A DNA stretch of 64,000 nucleotides, taken from contig OX485805.1 in the NCBI GenBank assembly GCA_950295325.1, forward strand, positions 20,819,501-20,883,500. The letters run 5' to 3'. Of the stretch, positions 19,214 through 61,712 are shown in pieces; positions within the stretch are counted from its first letter, which is position 1; every line of letters starts with the position of its first letter. The position numbers were made by a program, and so were the translations under genes. Source of the stretch: Polytrichum commune. Its lineage: Eukaryota; Streptophyta; Polytrichopsida; Polytrichales; Polytrichaceae. The notes beneath the pieces are model-generated. The model saw only the letters and a program-made list of their open reading frames with translations, was not told the DNA's origin and did no database searches.

Positions 19214-20555
19214 ACCATGTCATTATTTTAAGGATATATTTTTGAATGATCGTTCTAAGATTGATTCTTTAGGTGAATCAATGTGGTTAAAAAATGAATC
19301 TCATAAGTTGTGCCAAAAAATGTGCGTTTACTTATTACAAGAAGTTCATTGTTGTCTTGGTAATGATGTATGCAACAAAAACACTGTTTGTATGCATGCA
19401 AGGAAATAACAACTTTCATTATTTTCTTTGAGACATGAGGTGGATTCAATTATAAAATGTTGGACATATGTAGAGTGCAACCAAGATTTTCTAAATGAAC
19501 GTTCAAATATGTCATAGACAGATAGATAGACATGCCAACCTCCCATGAAAGCAAACGTAAATGGAGAGTCACTTCGCTCATCGGCTACATCAACCACTCA
19601 GTGGTGGACTTTGTGTAAATGACATGTAATTGATCGGGTAAAATGTAATGAACTTTTTCCCTGTTGCGGGGGGGGGGGGGATGGAAGGAGTTTTTGTAAG
19701 GGGGGAGGAAGTGTAGGGGGGTGTATTGGGAGGAACTATGCTATGGCTAATTGCAGGGTTGGGTTTTGAGACTGGATTTGTTAAGCATGATGGTAGAGAA
19801 GGAACAGATGGTGGGGTGTGTGGTTGAGTTTGCATGGATGGGGGTTTGAATTAATTGGTAAGGCCTATGGGGGTGGGAGTCCATATTCCTCCTCGTTGGC
19901 TAGTTGTATGCATAATAGATGGTTTAATCAGTAGTGTGTGATCTAAGTAATCCAAAGGCATTTTTGAAATCAATGTGCGTAAGGTCGATATTGTTGGAGT
20001 TGAGACAAACATCTTCTAAAGTTGCTTTTACTTTTGTCTATGTCATTTAGTGTTCCTTTGTGGTCTAAAATCTTCATGACAAAAGTGGAATATTTTTTAA
20101 TTTTTCGCCATAACTTGTGATGAGGGTTGTAAGCATGTTAATACACTATAGGCACATAACATTATTCAGTTGCATGGTTGTGTTCCATTCTATATTTAGC
20201 ATATGACATGGACCTTCACTATCTTACCTTCATGGGAAGAAACTTAGAAAATAAGAAGAAATTGATGCCAATACGAATAATGAGTAGTGTTGGTTTGAAT
20301 AGTAAAAATGTTGTGAATAGTGTCAGTATTTTTAGTGGTATTGTTTCTATTAATAATATTTTCAAGGAATAGTGTTTATTTGAACAATGTAAGTTGTGTA
20401 CATTATTGGGATGAACAATAAATCTTGTGCATAGTGTTGGGAGTATAATTCCACCCAAATTTCCAAGTTCAACCTAAATTTATGAATAGTAACTGGACAT
20501 TCCCGTTTTTTTTGAGGGCCCACAAAATATAATTGACATACTCCAAGGTCATGGA
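19214..20555. other. gene-free stretch, G run
   Basis: No gene recognised. A run of 12 or more G lies near 19667-19680. The minus strand downstream of the LINE fragment no longer reads as reverse transcriptase, so the LINE homology stops near 20560. Confidence 0.45.
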
Positions 20556-21318
20556 ACTGACTCACATGGCTGAATAATGTTATACATGGGTTTGTGGTTA
20601 GTAAGTTGTAGTGGATCATTTTTTTGTGTAGGAGTATTACTATATTGTGCTTCCAACAATTGAAATTGTTTTAGGTGGTAGGATTGTAGGAAGAAGAGGA
20701 GTAGCATATAGCATAAGGTTGGTAAGGCTTGAAGTATTTCATTTGGGATGTTGTTAGGTCCTAGGACTTTCACTCTGGCTAGTTTTATGAGACTATTGTC
20801 ACAAACTTTCTTGGAGAAATTCCTGGATATTGTGCAATCTTTGGAACCTCTTTTCCCAATGGTGCATTTGTCTAGCCGTGCTTTTGATATTTTTGGATTG
20901 TGCATTGGCATATTGTATGGTGGTGAGTGGGGTCATCCCATGTAGATACTTGTTGGTAAGAAAAAAACTTTCTTGCATGTGTAAGCTTCTTGTGCTATGT
21001 CTATTGGGTTTATGAATTGTTGTTTATATCTTTGAGACAATCTAGGGATATATTTGTGAGGGGGTTAAATTGTTTTGTGTATAATTATAGGTTTGAGATT
21101 GAGTAAGGTCTAGAATTTTCTGATGACATTTTCATAGTTAATGGTGGTTTGTTGAGTGGTGACTTTATGGGCTTCTATCTTGGCAGCAATGCCAATGGTG
21201 GCTAGTTCTTCAATCCTTTTTTTAGTTGTTGTGTTATCAGTGTGGGAATCATAGTGACATTTTTGAGGGTAGAAAGTTGTTTGATGTCTTTGTGGTTGGC
21301 CCAAGTTGGGCATGGTTG

Positions 21319-22310
21319 CACTACAAGAAAAAACGGTTCCGTTCCAACAGAGTTCCAACATAATTCCGTTGATTCTACCTGTTGATTCAGAACTCTTGAT
21401 TCGGAACAATTTTAACACATATCTCTTGATTAAGGCATTGGTTAAATGTCCAAGTTATACTAGTAAAAATGATATAAATTAGTAATTCCACCCCTCACAT
21501 CCCGGGCCTACACACCTACTACCAAGGACCACCTTGCCTAGCCTAAGGGTAAAGGACCTAGCCACATACCTAACCTAGGCTAAAGGACCTAACCACCTAC
21601 CTAACCTAGGCTAGGCCCAAGGGTGAAGGCCAAGGGTATCGATCCTTGAACCTCTTGGCAAGCGCGAGGAGGCCTTAGCCACTAAGCCACCACTCATCAC
21701 ATAATGTAGAATGAGTATGTAAGACATTTGTATAAAGAGGCCGTAAAATTTATAAACTTTTGTAAAATTTATAATTACATAGATTACATAATTACATATT
21801 TATAGTAATTACAGAAATTAGTAATTACTTTAATTACTTTAATTAGTCATTTCTGTAAGTACTTTAATTAGCAATTGCTGTAATTACTTTAATTACTTTA
21901 ATGAGTAAGTACAATAATTAGAGTAATTGCTAATTAGTAATTAAATATACTATAAATAGAACAAAATTACAATAATTCACAATTTACTATAATTGTAAAT
22001 TTAAGTAATTAAAAAGATTAAATATTGCAAATTAATCAAACTATTTAATTATTGTAAATTATAAGAATCATAGTAATTGATTACTTTAACATAATTAGTG
22101 TTATTTAAAAATTAAAATACAATAATTAAAATTCCTCTGCTGAAATCAACAGATAAATGATCTTCCTCTGTTGAAATCAACAGATAAATGTTCCCTCTGT
22201 TGATTTGTGTTGCACAATGGATCCATTTCAACATTGTTTTTCCCAAATCTGTTGAAATCAACAGAAATTAGTTGATTTTATGTTGATTCGGACTGTGATT
22301 TCTTGTAGTG
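21319..22310. mobile_element. non-autonomous CACTA (EnSpm/CMC) element, 992 bp
   Basis: The left end begins CACTACAAGAAA and the right end is TTTCTTGTAGTG, a perfect 12-bp terminal inverted repeat of the plant CACTA type. It is flanked by the 3-bp duplication TTG (21316-21318 and 22311-22313), as this superfamily makes. Subterminal repeats such as CTGTTGAAATCAACAG, itself palindromic, occur near the right end. No transposase is encoded; the core is AT-rich. A GC-richer SINE-like block sits inside at about 21483-21705. It interrupts the LINE remnant, so it inserted after it. Confidence 0.93.
21483..21705 (-). mobile_element. tRNA-derived SINE-like block inside the CACTA element
   Basis: On the minus strand the block starts near GTGATGAGTGGTGGCTTAGTGG, which holds a good A box (TGGCTTAGTGG). 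About 35-40 nt later comes GGTTCAAGGATCGATACC, close to a B box. The rest repeats TAGGTTAGGTAGGTGGTTAGG-like units. Its base composition is clearly richer in G+C than the surrounding element. I found no sure target-site duplication. Confidence 0.55.
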
Positions 22311-23344
22311 TTGGGACTACACAGATTATTTGGATTATCCTATGATAGATCTTAAGTTGTTATTCCCAAGCTTTATATTTTTTACATGGGAGAAAGCCAG
22401 GCTTGTTGGTGGGCCCAATATAGTAGGGTGAAGGGTAATTTATTTGTTGAGGCGTGTTTCTTCAATGTACGTACTTAGCGTGTTTATGATGTCTTAGAAT
22501 TTTATTTGGGCTTCTCCCTAGTCGGTTTGTGGTAGGTGTGGATTAGTATTTGGTGAGTGATAGTACATGTTAAGGTTTGTGGCTTTCTTGGAACATGATG
22601 ATCATATTGTGTATACAATTTGGTTGAATGGGGTATGTGATTTTGGTAGTGTGGTTTGTGGTTGTTGGATTGTTTGGACTAGGTGGTTGGAGTCCAATTT
22701 CATGATGATTGGGTAGTGATAAAAGTTTGGTTATGATTAAGTGAGATTTTGCATGTCATCCATGTGTGGTGTGATATGTTGATGAAGACACTGTTTATGT
22801 AGCTATTGCATGTGTAGTTATGTTCAGCTTGTCAAGATACGGTTTCAATAATATAGATTGGGTGCAAGGCTAGGCTATGCATGTGTTGAGCCCTTCTTGT
22901 TTGTCTTTATTGTTGGGGTTTTGGGGTGCGTTGTCATGAATGCATCCTTATAGGAATATGTTTATGTTGAAATCTCATGCTATGATTATTTTGTATGGTG
23001 GGTGATGTTTAATAAGGGTTTTGATTTGGTTTTTGAGGTTTGGTATGACATGTAGGTCGTTGGGATGTGATGGCATGTAGAAGTTTATGATGAGAAATGG
23101 TGTGAGTGGTTTGTTTGATATTTTAAAGGCTTGCAGGTATTGTAAGATGTTGCTTGGGATGGGGATTGTAATGATATTTTCACAAGTGTGGACGTCTTTG
23201 TGGATCATGGCTAGTACCCTTCTTCATGGAGATCCGGTTTGGGATATGACAAACTATTATAAGGTGAGGAGGTTCTTTAGTCGTGATGCTCATCATTTGG
23301 ACATTGTTGAGGTGTGCAAGTGCATCCAACTACATGAAATGCAT

Positions 23345-51482: not shown

Positions 51483-52430
51483 GCTTGCAACTCACACCAC
51501 TACTTAGATCTCCCTTGCAACAAATTCTTACCCTAAATTACCTGCTTCCAACATGCATCCCAACTTCCACAACCGAGCCCTTCCAAGCTGGACATGTTGG
51601 AAACCTTTCTCGCTAATAAGGAAGATTGGAACTTAAATAGTTACTTTTTCGCACTAAGGTGGATGGGTCTTACAGTAAGTGGCTCGTTTTCTTTATGAGA
51701 TCCCTAGACTTGATTGCCATGCGGTTCGGCAAGGATCAACAAGCAAACATCATAAAGACACATGTTAAAAGAGATTGGACCACATCTTCAAATATTAATA
51801 ACTACTCTACACTCAATACCGTAACACCATAGCAGGTTCACCACCTGCCGCACGAATATTTAATTTTTTTGAAAAAATAAGGTTCGCATTCCAAAAATAG
51901 ATTTTTTTGAAATTCGTCTTCTCATTTATTGGATTAAAAATCATTTGTGTTTAGGGTGGGAAAGATGTGCAGAAATTTCATCCTAATTGTGTTTTTCATC
52001 CATTTATGGTGGCCCAACTTGTTTAAACCTAAGTCATTACCCTAATCCTGATTTTCTGTCTTTTCGTTTTTATCACAGTATAATTTGAGAGTTATTCGTT
52101 TCTCTTTGCCTGTAATTTATGTTTTTTTACGTTTTTTTGGGGGGGAATTATTTATGAACGAACCTGCTATGGTGTTACGGTAGTGAACTTGATGGGGGAA
52201 GCGATCAACTTGTCAAAATATTTCATGACATGTGAGCGCTTCGTGAAGCAACATGAAATAGAACCATTTGTAAATAAAGTAGAGGCGCACATAACCGATC
52301 ACTTAAGAGATTCTACACCAATTATGGAGAAGTATTAAGTTGTGCAATTTTTTCCCATGCAGAAGATAGAAATGGGGAGGACTGCGAATTTTTCAATAAT
52401 TGTATTCTTTGAATTGAAACTACTATATAT
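51483..52430. other. 5' flank of NRPC7 and gene-free DNA
   Basis: Presumably the NRPC7 promoter at about 51500-51700 and then unassigned AT-rich DNA. No clear TATA box. TATGGTGTTACGGTAGTGAA (52168) and its partner CCGTAACACCATAGCAGGTT (51820) form an inverted repeat about 350 bp apart, which may be the ends of a small element. Confidence 0.4.
51816..52189. mobile_element. possible inverted-repeat element
   Basis: The left motif CACTCAATACCGTAACACCATAGCAGGTTC (read in two parts) is answered on the right by GAACC-TGCTATGGTGTTACGGTAGTGAA-type sequence, an imperfect inverted repeat of about 25-30 bp at either end of about 370 bp. The interior is AT-rich and non-coding. No target-site duplication was established. 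Confidence 0.5.
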
Positions 52431-52432
52431 TT

Positions 52433-53690
52433 TTGAAGCCAAAAACTGGCCCGAAAATATTACCAATGTCTAGAGTTTGCCATAACTTCCCCAAAGGCTA
52501 CTCAAACAACCTTGCCCAACTACCATGTGAAACGTTCAACATTGAAGCACTCTCCCTACTCCCAAGATATGTCACTACACTTAGCGAGTCACATAGACAA
52601 TTAATGACCCAAGCCCATTAGGCCAAAGATACCAAGGAATACTGAAATTTATAGCCAACAAATATGGTGGAGCTTCACACCTCCCACCAACCACTAGATC
52701 CTTATACATACTAAAAACACACTTCAACATCCATCTACATTCCATAGACAACACCTTTCCTCTCGACAACTCCCTTGCTATCAAAAGAATGGTACAAAAG
52801 CTCATTTTACCCCGATCTCATCCCACAACGAAAACCAATACGGAGAATTTTCTTTTAAAAACTCTCCTCCTTCAACATTACCGCCTACCCCAAATCCAAG
52901 ATCTCACCAACACACACATACTCACCGTTAAAGAACTCCAAGATAAATACCATACCAAATCTAGAATATTGGAGAGTGAGCTTTTACAAGCCACTACCAT
53001 CTTCCCACTAAACACATACCACACACACCACCACCACCCACAACCCAAACTCTACCCGGCACCCAAGATATAACACAACCATGCAATCCCTAGGCACCCC
53101 CATCTCATACATCTCTAGCTTAAAATTCACACACAATTAAACCCCGACACCATCCTCTACGAACACAACAGCCTAAGACCCCAACAATCATGCGATAAAC
53201 AAAATGTTCACCCCAACCTCAACATCCCACACCTTACCCTCCATATTGAAGAATGTAATCCATACAAAGATATCATCGCCACATCACCCGCAATACAAAT
53301 ACACCCCCCTCCCTTTGGCCCAAACACACAACATATTAGAGTTTGTGAACATAGATAATGCACAGAGAAAATAGACTATACAATACTATCATTTTTTGTT
53401 GAGTCATGTAAAAGAGGCTTTGAGCCAAGTAACCATTACAAAACCTTGTCAGAAAACCCAAGTGTGCTAGAGACATGGATCAATACACTAGAGAATTACA
53501 AAACTATATCATTGTTGGAGAACTAGAAAGTTGTATGTGGGCACACAAATCCGCTTCCACATCGATTCTATTATTAAACCAATATGAAGGCTATCACCAA
53601 CAATCGGCTGTTGCAAAACGAGAAGGCAAAGAATGCGAAATGAGAAGGCAAGAAGTTGAGAATACAAGAGCTACATGATTGGGAAGATTT
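52433..53690 (+). pseudogene. LINE fragment, region just after the reverse transcriptase
   Basis: Reading across two or three frameshifts and several stops gives LINE ORF2-like protein. Segments are SLLPRYVTTLSESH, then DPSPLGQRYQGILKFIANK, TRSLYILKTHFNI, FLLKTLLLQHYRLPQIQDL and HIEECNPYKDI. A later stretch (53400-53640) reads SENPSVLETWINTLENYKTI. These fit the thumb/connection region of a non-LTR element and the spacer after it; the RT catalytic core is not present. An ECNP-type motif also occurs in the element at 57.4-61.7 kb, which suggests one family. Whether it is a separate copy or an upstream part of the same element, split by about 3.7 kb of other DNA, is not settled. Confidence 0.6.
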
Positions 53691-56410: not shown

Positions 56411-56821
56411 CTCCCTCTGTTTCATAATAAAAGTTATGTTTAAGAAAATCCGTGGGCTTAAGGTCATTTTTTGCACTTTTAGCACAAAATTGCGTGTGTT
56501 GCATAGCTCTCACTAAGCGCTTTCCAGTGAGCTAGGGGTGTCCATAGTAACACCCGTTCATCGCCATTGACGATTGACACTGATTGATCTCACACATAAA
56601 ACCGCATTGATGTGCGTCGACGCCATCGAGTCCAAATAGCAATTATTAAACATGTGTAAACTGTTATTTGACTTGGTAGTTTGTTTGCAAAAATATTTAT
56701 ATTGTTTCTTGCAACATTCCAGTTCGTTTGGTGAAGTTTGAGAGAAATTTCACCAAATGTAATTTATATTTCGTAACATGATTTATGTCCAAACGTAACT
56801 TTCATTTTGAAACAAAGGGAG
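56411..56821. mobile_element. Stowaway-type MITE (Tc1/mariner), 411 bp
   Basis: Ends CTCCCTCTGTTTCATAATAA and, in reverse complement, CTCCCTTTGTTTCAAAATGA; the inverted repeat runs about 30 bp with few mismatches. It is flanked by TA on both sides (56409-56410 and 56822-56823). The CTCCCTC-GTTTC terminus and TA target site are the signature of plant Stowaway elements. Non-coding. Confidence 0.92.
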
Positions 56822-56823
56822 TA

Positions 56824-57370: not shown

Positions 57371-57382
57371 TGCAATGAGATT
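57371..57382 (+). repeat. target-site duplication, left copy
   Basis: TGCAATGAGATT, identical to 61701-61712. Confidence 0.8.
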
Positions 57383-57388
57383 AGATAT

Positions 57389-57470
57389 GTCAGAATGGTC
57401 GAGTTGGCGATCTAACGAGAGAGCTGGGAGGTGATGGGTGTGAAGCAAACTTGATGGCGAGAGCAAGTTG
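57389..57470 (+). other. tRNA-Leu-like head with A-box promoter element
   Basis: GTCAGAATGGTCGAGTTGG closely resembles the 5' end of plant tRNA-Leu (GTCAGGATGGCCGAG...), including an A box (TGGTCGAGTTGG). It begins 6 nt after the left target-site duplication. The rest of the tRNA and the B box are degraded. SINEs and some chimeric retroposons start this way. Confidence 0.5.
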
Positions 57471-57499
57471 AGAGGTTGCCGGAGGTTGGGAGAAAGGCC

Positions 57500-58267
57500 A
57501 AGAGTCAAAGCGGTGGCCACGCTGCTGCTCCTCGCAACCGCTACCCAAAACCACCCCCACACATCTTGAAGGACCCCACACACTTCCCAATACACATCAT
57601 GCTTCATGACCACCCAAGAATATACAAGATAAATATAAAATCACAAAAAAATCACATCCTACTTATGCCAATGGTCCTTCCCATACAATGTAACTTACAA
57701 CAAATGGCTTCCCCAAAGAGACTTATTTCCGTGGAATAACCAAAACACCATAAACTATAATATATTGCTATTAATACAATACTACACAAGGAAACAACAT
57801 CAACATTACGTTAACATACTACAATCAAACTACAACCAAGAACAAACGAGAGACACTCGATATATACCAACACCACGAACCATACCTCTATGCCACATCT
57901 GCATCAACGAATGCAACCCAGAAAATGATATCGCCTACACACAAAACACTATTCAAACTCAATACGGAGTATCTCACATATATGATAATATTGGCCGCCA
58001 CTTGATCACCATTCTAGAACAAAGACTAAAATGGCTACGGGAACAATACCAAACAACCCTGAAAAATCCCCAACATCTTGAGCCCCCCACACAAACATTT
58101 GAAACGGAAGTTGCATGGTTATATCAAATATATAAATACAAAACCCATAAAAAATTATCCTTAAAACTGGCACAGTATACGCTCCCAGAAGCCATCCTCG
58201 AGCACTTCATAGACTCCTACCAAATCACACACTCCTACTTTTCATCACGAGTAACATGCCCCACTAC
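57500..58267 (+). pseudogene. LINE ORF segment of unknown fold with Cys motif, before the methyltransferase-like domain
   Basis: One frame gives HFPIHIMLHDHPRIYKINIK up to about 57655. After a frameshift a second frame runs open from about 57650 to 58267: LPQRDLFPWNNQN, then IPLCHICINECNPENDIAY with a Cys-x2-Cys plus Cys, WLREQYQTTLK, AWLYQIYKYKTHKKLSL and ILEHFIDSYQITHSYFSS. I do not recognise the first part. The ECNP motif also appears in the 52.4-53.7 kb fragment. The frame continues directly into the segment at 58602 once the MITE is removed. Confidence 0.6.
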
Positions 58268-58601
58268 CTCGGGGGGGGGGGGGCAGTGTGCTAAAAAGTT
58301 AAGGATATAGGTGCGAACAACCACTATTTTATAGGGGGGTATTACTTTCAAATTTTTTTTTCACATGCTATCATTATGTAAATTTCTACTTTGGGTTAAT
58401 AGAAAAATGGCTTGCATTACTTATAATTTCAAATTACCTATTATTCCATACCTTATAGTACTTTAAAGATGTCCAGTGCCATTTTTGATACCCTATATTA
58501 CTCTTAAGCCCAATTATAAATTTTTGCTCCCATGTTTTTAAAATACCCTATCATTTGTTCGCACGTATATTGCTACTCCAACCAATGACTACCCCCCCGA
58601 G
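58268..58601. mobile_element. MITE inserted in the LINE ORF, 334 bp, 8-bp target-site duplication
   Basis: CCCACTAC flanks it on both sides (58260-58267 and 58602-58609). The ends are CTCGGGGGGG... and ...CCCCCCCGAG. Longer subterminal inverted repeats follow: TATAGGTGCGAACAA on the left and TTGTTCGCACGTATA on the right. The interior is AT-rich without coding sense. An 8-bp duplication fits hAT-like transposition, but the end sequence is not a classic hAT end, so the superfamily is open. Removing the element and one duplication leaves the LINE frame open. Confidence 0.85.
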
Positions 58602-58955
58602 CCCACTACACTTAAACATTTCTACTCTCCATTTCCCCGAGACAGAGTTTTTGGATCAATAGGCACATCATTCCAGTATAAATGGCAAGGACATGGATAT
58701 GCCCACCCACACACGGAAAAAGAAGCCCAACAAGGCCTTCATTGGGCACATCTTGCTTCCAAAAACAACTCAGAGATAATCACAATCCTTGTAACTCCTG
58801 ACCATAATTGGTATCACAACCATAACCCCCACGAAGGTCCTTTCCCAGACTCACATGTTATCGCACACTTCAAAGCAGACACCATCACATATGAAGAACC
58901 AACAATTCCACCAGAATTACGAATTGAACCTAAAATAGAAAACCGAGCCATACGC
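58602..58955 (+). pseudogene. LINE ORF segment resembling a phage-type DNA adenine methyltransferase (Dam-like) domain
   Basis: The frame is open and reads FYSPFPRDRVFGSIGTSFQY, then KWQGHGYAHPHTEKE, LHWAHLASKN, TILVTPDHNWY, PFPDSHVIAHF and ADTITYEEPTIPPELR. The order W-G-x-YA-x-P, then an Ala/Trp helix, a hydrophobic strand and WY resembles the phage N6-adenine methyltransferase family (Pfam Dam type). In that family the block after W-G holds the catalytic NPP[YF] motif; here the place reads HPHT, so activity is doubtful. The identification is from motif order only. It lies between the upstream LINE segment and RNase H in one frame (after removal of the insertions). Confidence 0.45.
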
Positions 58956-59707
58956 TATCGTGGAGAGAGGGGTCCGCTTTAGGAAAGCACGGGGCTTCTG
59001 GCTGCAACTGGTTTCGCTCGCCGGACCGTCAAATTTTCAATTGTCCTCAAAACTTCCTCAATCTTTTAAATCTTTACAAAACAAATCTATCAATAAGTCT
59101 TACTCTCTCAAAGGATTGTTGCCAACAAAGACTTGTCCGTCTTTTTGTGGACGGTCGAAGTCTCAGCTCTTTCTATGCAAGAGCTAGCAAACTTCCCTCC
59201 ACTCAAACTAGCACAACTTTGTTTTCGCTCACTCTCCTTCAAGCATGTAAACACTCAAGATAAAACAATCACATGAAAAAACTCAATTGCATATTTTATT
59301 TCAAGTTTTCTTCTCCAAAAAAACACACAACAACCGTCGTGCTTTCAACAACAAAAAACTTGTCTCTCCCCACTCTCTTCTCCTCAACCACATATATGAG
59401 ATAAGGCCTCAAATCCTCCTCTTATCCTCATCACGTGATTTCTAATTATCCATTGGTCTAAAGATAAACTAAGGATAAAACTAGAAATAAGGCTAAAAGG
59501 GTAATAAGAGTAAACTAAGAGTAAAAATAATAGATAAAAATAAAAAAGATAAACTAAAAGTTACTAAGAATAACTATGAGTAACAAAAAAGGTAATCTAA
59601 TTCTACTCCCTTTTACTTTCCTCCTTCATCTCCAAATGAAGGAATCACCATGAAACACAAAATACGTACACATGTAAATAATGTATGTATTTACACTACG
59701 ACAACGC
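58956..59707. mobile_element. second insertion within the LINE ORF, about 750 bp, class unknown
   Basis: The LINE frame reads ...ENRAIR up to 58955 and resumes ALCIHHKDTSPE at 59708. ACGC occurs at both edges (58952-58955 and 59704-59707), a possible short duplication. The insert starts TATCGTGG and ends CTACGACA, weak inverted ends. It contains a hairpin-forming GACTTGTCCGTC...GACGGTCGAAGTC near 59130-59160. No coding domain is visible. Edges are inferred from reading-frame logic and may be a few bases off. Confidence 0.55.
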
Positions 59708-61003
59708 GCCCTATGTATACACCATAAAGACACATCCCCTGAATCAAAAGAATACACCCAACATATGTACAATCTTGCTAACGCTCTACAAATACCTGCA
59801 ATATTTGCCCAATCTGCACCACCTACACCACAAGACACATTAGTAAATTGTGGTAAAAAATGGTTCAAACTCATATACCCACTCCACCCACCTACCACCT
59901 CAACCCCTAACATCCCAACAATCACCAACATTGACAAATGCCTACCCCTCAAATACCTACCACAATTCTGCTACTACACAGATGGCTCATTCAAACCACC
60001 TAAAGAAACATCTCAAGGACATTGGAAACGTGAAAAAACAGGGTATGGCATCTATAACTCTATAAAAAATCTAAAAATTGCAGTAAGACTACCAGGACTA
60101 CAAAACATACTAGGAGCTGAAATGATGGCTATACACCACACCCTCCGACTCCTGACCACCACATATCGCGATGAAACAACACATATCTTCACAAATTGCC
60201 TTAATGTCCTATATTTACTAAACACTCAAATCAAACACCCCACACTACGTAACAGTCACCCAGACAAAAATATCCTTGAATCCATGATCATAATGCTACA
60301 ATTCCGCACACAAAGCACCACACTCCATAAAGTCAAAGCCCATGCTAACATAAACGGGAATGAACAAGCCGACACACTAGCCAAAATAGGATGCGAACTT
60401 GATCACAGAGACGCCGTAATGCCACATGAACATGCGCACCCTACCCCATATTACCTCCAAAAAGATTGGTGGCACTCAATGCAAGAAACACCAAACAAAG
60501 GCCCTATAAGACACCTTGGAAAATACGTCCTCAAATACGACAAAAAACACAACTTAGAAGTCATAGCTAACCAAACACACCAACTACAAAAATGGCTCAA
60601 AAACAAAGATATTGACAAGACATTATCAAACAATTTTTGGACAAATCCAAGTATCACCGACAAACAAAAAACATGTCTAGTAAAATTCCGGACGGGACAG
60701 TACATGGGCCAAGCTCGGAAGCAACTCTTCTTTGGTAGAGAAGCCTACCCATCAAATACATGCCCCATTTGGAACTCATCAGATGTAGATACATGGTTAC
60801 ATGTACTACTCAAATGCAAACAACAACACATTCACGCACTAATAACAAAACGACACAACAAAGCGGTATGGGAAATCCGCAAACTAATTTTGTCTAAAAA
60901 TATATATAGACACTATACACTCATGAATGCGGGAACGCACAATGAACAACCTCAAGAAAATACCGTGCCTACATGGCTATTGCCATGCACATGCGGCACC
61001 TAG
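59708..61003 (+). pseudogene. LINE ORF segment with RNase H domain, one catalytic residue altered
   Basis: A long open frame (from 59681 by ATG, but LINE homology starts at 59708) ending in TAG at 61001-61003. RNase H motifs appear in order: YYTDGSF (Asp at 59981), GAEMMAIHHTL (Glu at 60119), IFTNCLNVLYLL (60185-60220) and HKVKAHANINGNEQADTLAK (60330-60390). The third motif has Asn (codon at 60194) where Asp is needed, a single G-to-A type change. After it come GPIRHLGKY, then CLVKFRTGQYMGQARK and a C-x-x-W...WLHVLLKC-type segment usual at the end of such ORFs. The TAG truncates the frame, so this copy is probably inactive. Confidence 0.85.
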
Positions 61004-61436
61004 AGATGCCACTGTAACGCCAGGTTTAAACCAGATATATTGTGCGTCATAGGACATCCATATAACCACCCCCACCAGAACCCCCTACAACAGGAATCAC
61101 CATACAATTCATCGAATTCACATACTGTAATGACAAATTTACCGCAGAAACCCTCGATAGGAAAACCACAAAATACCAACCACTCATCAATAACATTATC
61201 TCGAAGGGGTGGAACATAGCCCCACTCATGGTGCTAGTCGCAGGCGCAAGAGCCACCACACACATCCCATCCATGAAAAACCTGGAAACAACACTTAAAC
61301 TCCCCCTCAAAAAAATAAAAAACACATTTTAACAAATTAACATTATCGCCACACAATACGCACACTCAATATTAGTCCATAAACGAAGACTAGAAAACAA
61401 ACAATCGATCACGGACCTTCAAGACCTTGCATAACT
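61004..61436 (+). pseudogene. C-terminal LINE ORF region after the stop
   Basis: After the TAG and a frameshift, coding sense resumes at about 61085: TIQFIEFTYCNDKFTAETLD, NIISKGWNIAPLMVLVAG, SMKNLETTLKLPLKKI. After one more stop it continues IIATQYAHSILVHKRRLENK and ends at a TAA near 61433. This looks like the natural C terminus of the element's ORF. I do not recognise the domain. Confidence 0.6.
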
Positions 61437-61682
61437 AAATGAACTACCTCATAACCCGGTACATCTCGCCATTTCAAACACTACCGCCTCACCAAATAAC
61501 CACCGGTAACTACTACCACATATTACCGGTTACTGGTGAACTGGCTATCTGTTATTAACATAGTGTCTACTCCCTGCAAGGGGTGAAGTAGTTCTACATC
61601 TAACGCCACTACCCTTGGGTGTGACTAAGGATGTTTTACGAACAGACACTCGATTCACTCCGGCCTCCTCGGAGACCGGAGT

Positions 61683-61700
61683 TCTTCTTCTTCTTCTTCT
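61683..61700 (+). repeat. (TTC)n tail of the LINE-derived element
   Basis: TTCTTCTTCTTCTTCTTC directly before the right target-site duplication. Short tandem tails of this kind mark the 3' end of many non-LTR retrotransposons. Confidence 0.8.
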
Positions 61701-61712
61701 TGCAATGAGATT
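61701..61712 (+). repeat. target-site duplication, right copy
   Basis: TGCAATGAGATT, identical to 57371-57382 and immediately after the (TTC)n tail. Confidence 0.8.

Follow-up and report, generated by a model that had tools for sequence, protein, structure and literature searches.

A family of LINEs (non-LTR retrotransposons) in the genome of Polytrichum commune encodes, between RT and RNase H, a domain that very probably has the core fold of PCIF1 (PF12237), the m6Am methyltransferase of the mRNA cap. The domain was under purifying selection among near relatives, and the catalytic motif of PCIF1 was replaced in all copies read. The chances seem to us evenly balanced that this is an old PCIF1-like capture, catalytically dead or altered, which has been kept as an RNA-binding module. 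The starting point was a broken copy within a stretch of 64,000 nucleotides (the window), in which a preliminary description had proposed a domain related to phage Dam-type DNA methyltransferases.

A LINE family with a PCIF1-like domain

A 118-aa peptide from the window was compared with the genome, and all of the 150 places scored, among 1392 first-look candidates, matched with E values of 7.1e-46 or lower. Matches other than the peptide itself exhibited 63 to 84% identity, and many were located in open frames of 1000 to 2169 aa. The order of domains in the long open frames was (APE), RT, PCIF1-like domain, RNase H and C-terminal domain. In the 2169-aa frame of L031, Pfam searches detected Exo_endo_phos_2 at residues 162 to 290 (E 5.3e-07, over the cut-off), RVT_1 at 659 to 925 (E 2.5e-26), PCIF1_WW at 1410 to 1525 (E 1.6e-09; 38.1 bits, with a cut-off of 31.1) and RNase_H at 1681 to 1823 (E 8.3e-15). 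In the 2625-aa frame of L047 (P0002), RVT_1 was followed by PCIF1_WW (40.4 bits) and then by RNase_H, as in L031, and no APE match was found in this frame by Pfam up to an E value of 1. The presence of RT and APE in L031, together with 5' truncation, a 12-bp target-site duplication and a (TTC)6 tract in the window copy, identified the window element as a LINE. The family consists of hundreds of genome copies, and some copies were 99.5 to 99.7% identical over 2.6 to 3.4 kb, which suggests a recent spread.

Two 3354-base loci, L024 on C3 (a chromosome) and L025 on C24 (a 37-kb contig), were 100% identical and are perhaps an assembly duplicate. Contig C8 of the genome carries the plastid gene rbcL, a tRNA-like stretch and accD, one after the other, which is the gene order of bryophytes. 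Several long LINE frames had a 2A-like peptide, GDI[EHKQ]xNPGP, ahead of the APE region; such peptides were present in L045 (aa 481), L046 (aa 476), L047 (aa 282), L032 (447-2282) and L048, and L049 and L050 had two copies each.

Three groups of LINEs, defined by identity, carried the PCIF1-like domain. The first group and the second (L048, L049 and L051) had 64 to 67% identity in RT and 42 to 43% in the PCIF1-like domain, while the third, degenerate group was represented by L053 and L054.

The assignment to PCIF1 was made because matches extended across the family; the pieces of the domain in the window fell short when taken alone. A search of the genome with PF12237 placed all 150 scored places (of 697 candidates) over the curated cut-off of 31.1 bits, with a best score of 55.6 bits, and none of 14 control genomes was positive. 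Ten of these 150 loci were read, and all ten looked like copies of the LINE; some of the other 140 were among the places matched by the 118-aa peptide. Each of the 12 members of alignment A1 matched PF12237 at an E value of 1 or lower (best, 2.9e-11). Members of the second group scored near the Pfam cut-off, with L048 below it at 26.7 bits and L051 just above it at 32.1 bits. When the A1 profile was compared with all PDB sequences, three weak matches were obtained up to an E value of 10, of which PCIF1 (6irx) was the first at 0.047. The A2 profile matched PCIF1 (E values of 0.0042 and 0.054) as well as a single other protein (0.97), and the A3 family profile detected only two sequences up to an E value of 10, both of PCIF1 (2.9e-4 and 5.3e-3). 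In the alignment of A3 to PCIF1 chain 6irv, y-a-h-p-h-t was paired with E-A-N-P-P-F. The core of the LINE domain was collinear with that of PCIF1 (also named CAPAM; PDB 6irx and 6irv), with F.SP..C....Q(F/Y).S.F..D..FGS.G followed by A-[N/H]-P-[P/H]. The LINE domain differs from PCIF1 in the replacement of NPPF, in its location between RT and RNase H and in having no WW match in the scanned ORFs. The N-terminal WW domain of PCIF1 binds the Pol II CTD; no WW domain was found by Pfam up to an E value of 1 in four LINE ORFs, some of whose frames stop short of the 5' end of the element. Overall, the claim of the preliminary description that a relative of adenine-N6 methyltransferases precedes RNase H in a plant LINE was borne out by these family matches and by RNase H (PF00075, E 2.2e-12), and the Pfam search that it had called for pointed to a methyltransferase family, which was PCIF1 and not Dam.

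No site in the searchable part of the genome matched the pattern G..FE.NPPF, which was used to look for a PCIF1 donor gene, and introns or sequence changes could hide a host PCIF1. Two scans of IMG/VR gave 36 and 39 pattern stretches, of which none was confirmed. PCIF1 is described as confined to eukaryotes and traceable to LECA in the relevant part of PMC8868631.

The last 350 aa of L031, L032 and L045 to L047 formed a conserved C-terminal domain with 61 to 85% identity to L031. This domain has a Cys/His stretch followed by RxPDILC...IEFTY...KxxKY, which we take to resemble a restriction-like endonuclease motif. Comparison of the domain with PDB gave one unrelated match (E 0.8), and comparison with Pfam gave a SwaI-like match (E 0.11) in one of five members, ahead of the motif region. 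The C-terminal domain may be such an endonuclease, in which case the LINE family would have two endonucleases. In Dualen, APE occurs together with RLE, and Dualen/RandI is listed among the LINEs with RNase H (PMC4640811, in part). With APE, RT, RNase H and this C-terminal arrangement, the family is possibly Dualen/RandI-like; a PCIF1-like domain is absent from the account of Dualen in the same portion of PMC4640811.

The interrupted copy in the window

The features of the window copy are collected in Table 1. Four segments (57645-58268, 58602-58955, 59705-61072 and 61087-61425) corresponded by tblastn to residues 1271 to 2167 of the L031 protein with 70 to 77% identity. LINE homology in blastn started at about 57542, which leaves 57383 to about 57540 unassigned. 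The sequence of the target-site duplication occurs at two places only on the + strand of the window.

Table 1. Features of the LINE copy in the window
Feature	Position	Strand	Basis
Target-site duplication, left copy, 12 bp, TGCAATGAGATT	57371..57382	+	exact repeat
LINE copy, 5'-truncated, APE and RT regions missing	57383..61700	+	tblastn against long-frame copies
PCIF1-like domain, N-terminal part (HIYDNIGRH ... YFSSR)	57975..58268	+	homologous to L031 up to residue 1478
MITE, 334 bp, inside the PCIF1-like domain	58268..58601	.	duplication and inverted ends
PCIF1-like domain, C-terminal part (interval first reported)	58602..58955	+	PF12237; 73.7% identity to L031
AHPHT, position of PCIF1 catalytic ANPPF	58701..58715	+	profile alignment to PCIF1 chain 6irv
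Second insert, ~749 bases, without LINE homology	~58956..59704	.	homology gap
RNase H domain (TDGS, GNEQAD)	59969..60394	+	PF00075, E 2.2e-12
C-terminal domain, Cys/His-rich stretch and KPDILC...FIEFTYC	60395..61425	+	tblastn, alignment, motif positions
(TTC)6, LINE 3' end	61682..61699	+	motif position
Target-site duplication, right copy, 12 bp, TGCAATGAGATT	61701..61712	+	exact repeat

The start of the domain in the window copy was placed by reference to L031, in which PF12237 begins at residue 1410. By homology, the whole domain spans ~57975 to ~59730 and is cut by the MITE and by a second insert. The MITE is flanked by an 8-bp duplication, CCCACTAC, at 58260-58267 and 58602-58609, and its ends are 10-bp perfect inverted repeats (CTCGGGGGGG). 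LINE homology ended at 58955 and was picked up again at 59705-59712; a search of the ends of the second insert found no clear duplication and no inverted repeat. The interval 58602-58955 had been described as a compact domain, and its sharp edges are due to the MITE and the second insert, which interrupt a larger domain. The translation quoted for it (WQGHGYAHPHT, TILVTPDHNWY and DSHVIAHF) was present, within an open stretch 146 aa long. The domain had also been described as in frame with RNase H. This was correct for the long-frame copies, in which the PCIF1-like segment and RNase H share one frame, and incorrect for the window copy, in which 58602-58955 and the RNase H part (from 59705) are in different frames.

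When the N-terminal piece (57639-58310) was taken alone, no Pfam match was found. The C-terminal piece alone matched residues 75 to 144 of the 176-residue PF12237 profile at about 15 bits (15.2), under the Pfam cut-off of 31.1 bits, and the structure predicted from it was too poor for fold comparison (pLDDT 39.2). The RNase H match covered residues 98 to 239 of the ORF at 59678-61003. The frame of the C-terminal domain was broken between 61003 and 61087. At 60761-60778, the window copy had CPIW where five long-frame copies had C[NPS]IC (alignment A4), with loss of a Cys of the Cys/His stretch.

Other elements were observed in the window. Degenerate fragments of related LINEs, with 27 to 47% identity to the long-frame copies, were present at 19951-23217 (-) and 52421-53304 (+), and the former led to the third group (L052 to L054). 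A MITE-like element at 56411-56823 had the ends CTCCCTCTGTTTCATAATA...AAACAAAGGGAGTA, which resemble Stowaway termini.

Catalytic motif and selection

NPP was found at the catalytic position in none of the 47 copies read, a set that includes the window copy (L001) and the identical pair L024/L025 and excludes L050 and L052 (which ends before the motif). One set of 30 copies had 29 AHPH motifs and one AHPD (L026), ten PF12237 loci had eight AHPH and two AHPP, and L045 and L047 had AHPH. The group of the window copy was thus characterized by AHP[HPD], the second group by A[FY]PTD (AFPTD in L048 and L049, AYPTD in L051) and the third by AHP[PS]D (AHPPD in L054 and, across a frameshift, AHPSD in L053). 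Since AHPP was present in the first and third groups, the ancestral motif may have been AHPP-like. Genome searches with KWxGxG[YF]A context patterns, which miss the second and third groups (these have L before A), detected NPP at 0 sites and HPH at 357 sites, with 0 sites for each reversed control. A-x-P was retained in all 47 copies. Where PCIF1 has the Asn of its SPLN stretch, the LINE domain had Thr (A3 profile alignment), and the SSPxTC and FGSxG stretches, which are alignable with PCIF1, were retained.

These results indicated that, by the NPPF motif, the LINE domain is not a PCIF1 enzyme; a replaced motif alone is no proof of lost catalysis. The preliminary description had read HPHT as a possible sign of a dead or repurposed fold. 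The absence of NPP on which this reading depended extended to all copies read, the long-frame copies that were read contained the segment and none was NPPY-like, and a dead or repurposed domain is, from the sequences, probable.

Altered motifs are also found in cellular PCIF1. The section of PMC11345611 on this enzyme names NPPF as its key catalytic motif and gives the capped end of mRNA, the 5' end, as its site of action. In Drosophila PCIF1, NPPF is altered (F to H) and cap m6Am was not detected in Drosophila; m6Am was also absent in the honey bee despite a mild motif change (F to Y) (PMC9479742, in the part that treats these species), and therefore absence of m6Am is no proof of the motif as its cause. 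The Drosophila protein shares an altered NPPF with the LINE domain, but is the product of a cellular gene and not of a transposon, with one motif residue changed.

Selection was examined by pairwise Nei-Gojobori comparison of the domain, RNase H and spacer, defined as residues 1400-1600, 1676-1825 and 1601-1675 of L031, respectively. Eleven pairs were computed, of which the five near pairs were used and the remaining six excluded because of depth or saturation (Table 2). In the five near pairs, the ratios, which are single pairwise estimates without confidence intervals from pairs that share copies, were 0.090 to 0.129 for the domain, 0.045 to 0.133 for RNase H (four pairs) and 0.181 to 0.356 for the spacer. 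The PCIF1-like domain is therefore under purifying selection among near relatives. The six pairs set aside span subfamilies or groups and are mostly saturated; the domain ratio ranged from 0.087 to 0.469 and was above that of RNase H in three of the six. In L031/L048, the domain pS of 0.610 was like that of two of the pairs used (0.608 and 0.612), and the ratio for this pair therefore pointed to weaker constraint on the domain between the first group and the second than would be expected from the near pairs. Constraint in the deeper pairs was less clear.

Table 2. Pairwise dN/dS for three regions of the LINE protein
Pair	Use	Domain	RNase H	Spacer
L031/L032	near	0.090	0.082	0.181
L045/L047	near	0.093	0.045	0.356
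L048/L049	near	0.118	0.075	0.338
L049/L051	near	0.129	not computable	0.348
L048/L051	near	0.124	0.133	0.340
L031/L045	set aside	0.251 (pN/pS)	0.206	
L031/L046	set aside	0.172	0.134	
L045/L046	set aside	0.087	0.146	
L032/L046	set aside	0.166	0.174	
L031/L048	set aside	0.469	0.319	
L045/L049	set aside	0.212	0.416	

Possible functions of the domain

Constraint on the domain despite loss of the motif suggests a role in binding or as a scaffold. In the explanation that we propose, an ancestor of these LINEs would have captured, from a gene of its host, a PCIF1-like domain, which would then have lost methyl transfer and been retained as a non-catalytic RNA-binding, perhaps cap-binding, module. Within the retrotransposition complex, this module would most simply grip the RNA of the element itself at its capped or 5' region, whereby RT and RNase H would act on a full-length template. 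We suggest gripping of the cap or 5' RNA in view of the site of action of PCIF1, the 5' end of capped mRNA.

The fold could instead serve purely to space RT and RNase H structurally, or as a platform for protein-protein contacts between them, and bind neither nucleic acid nor cap. The loss of the motif and the location of the domain would suit such a role, and constraint by itself cannot separate binding from folding. This explanation is possible but rather unlikely, as the adjoining true spacer, with dN/dS of 0.18 to 0.36 in the five near pairs, evolved 2- to 4-fold faster there, and the choice of an RNA-methyltransferase fold would have no evident reason.

A still-active methyltransferase with an unusual active site would methylate either the DNA copy of the element or its RNA, the latter at an adenosine that is internal or next to the cap, and so help the element to evade decay or silencing. 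Constraint among near relatives, the retained SSPxTC and FGSxG stretches and the invariant A-x-P are consistent with activity. We nevertheless consider it improbable: the N, the aromatic residue and mostly the second P of NPPF were replaced, the Asn of SPLN was Thr, and the replacements differed by group (AHP[HPD] versus A[FY]PTD), where a single new active site would predict one motif.

That the domain is a DNA methyltransferase of the phage Dam type (PF05869), as had been suggested at the outset, is highly improbable. In favour of this reading, phage Dam belongs to a broad class of adenine-N6 methyltransferases with a similar motif order and a [DN]PP[YF] motif. No Dam model was among the Pfam-A matches of the piece up to an E value of 10 or of 12 family members up to 1, the piece had no PHROGs match, and the relative that was matched instead was the eukaryotic PCIF1. 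The term "DNA-modifying" was likewise not supported, as the matched family acts on RNA. That the resemblance to PCIF1 is a chance product of degenerate sequence is barely credible, for although the window copy is broken and its piece alone reached E values of 0.014 to 0.017, every one of the 150 scored places exceeded the cut-off (best, 55.6 bits), the A3 profile found only PCIF1 in PDB and the domain is constrained.

A more far-reaching proposal is tentative and, in our judgement, unlikely: that a whole LINE lineage captured a cap-recognising methyltransferase and turned it into a cap-reading clamp or, alternatively, that the altered motif forms a novel active site. If the domain were such a clamp, the element would recognise its own RNA by the 5' cap, with cis-preference and full-length copying as the outcome. 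To our knowledge, no cap-recognising module is known in any LINE. Among the titles and abstracts listed in a literature search, none dealt with PCIF1 as part of a LINE, and prior mention is possible; the word "methyltransferase" was not found by a term search in PMC5348765, which deals with retrotransposons of oomycetes and plants.

LINEs have few known accessory domains; nucleases, RNase H, proteases and zinc knuckles make up most of them. A module of a new kind would be added to these by a domain that derives from a methyltransferase and is conserved across hundreds of copies in a single genome. Such a domain would also open to experiment a standing question, namely how LINE proteins recognise the RNA that encodes them and carry its copying through to the 5' end. 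In addition, the LINE copies provide a naturally occurring range of PCIF1 relatives whose active sites are altered.
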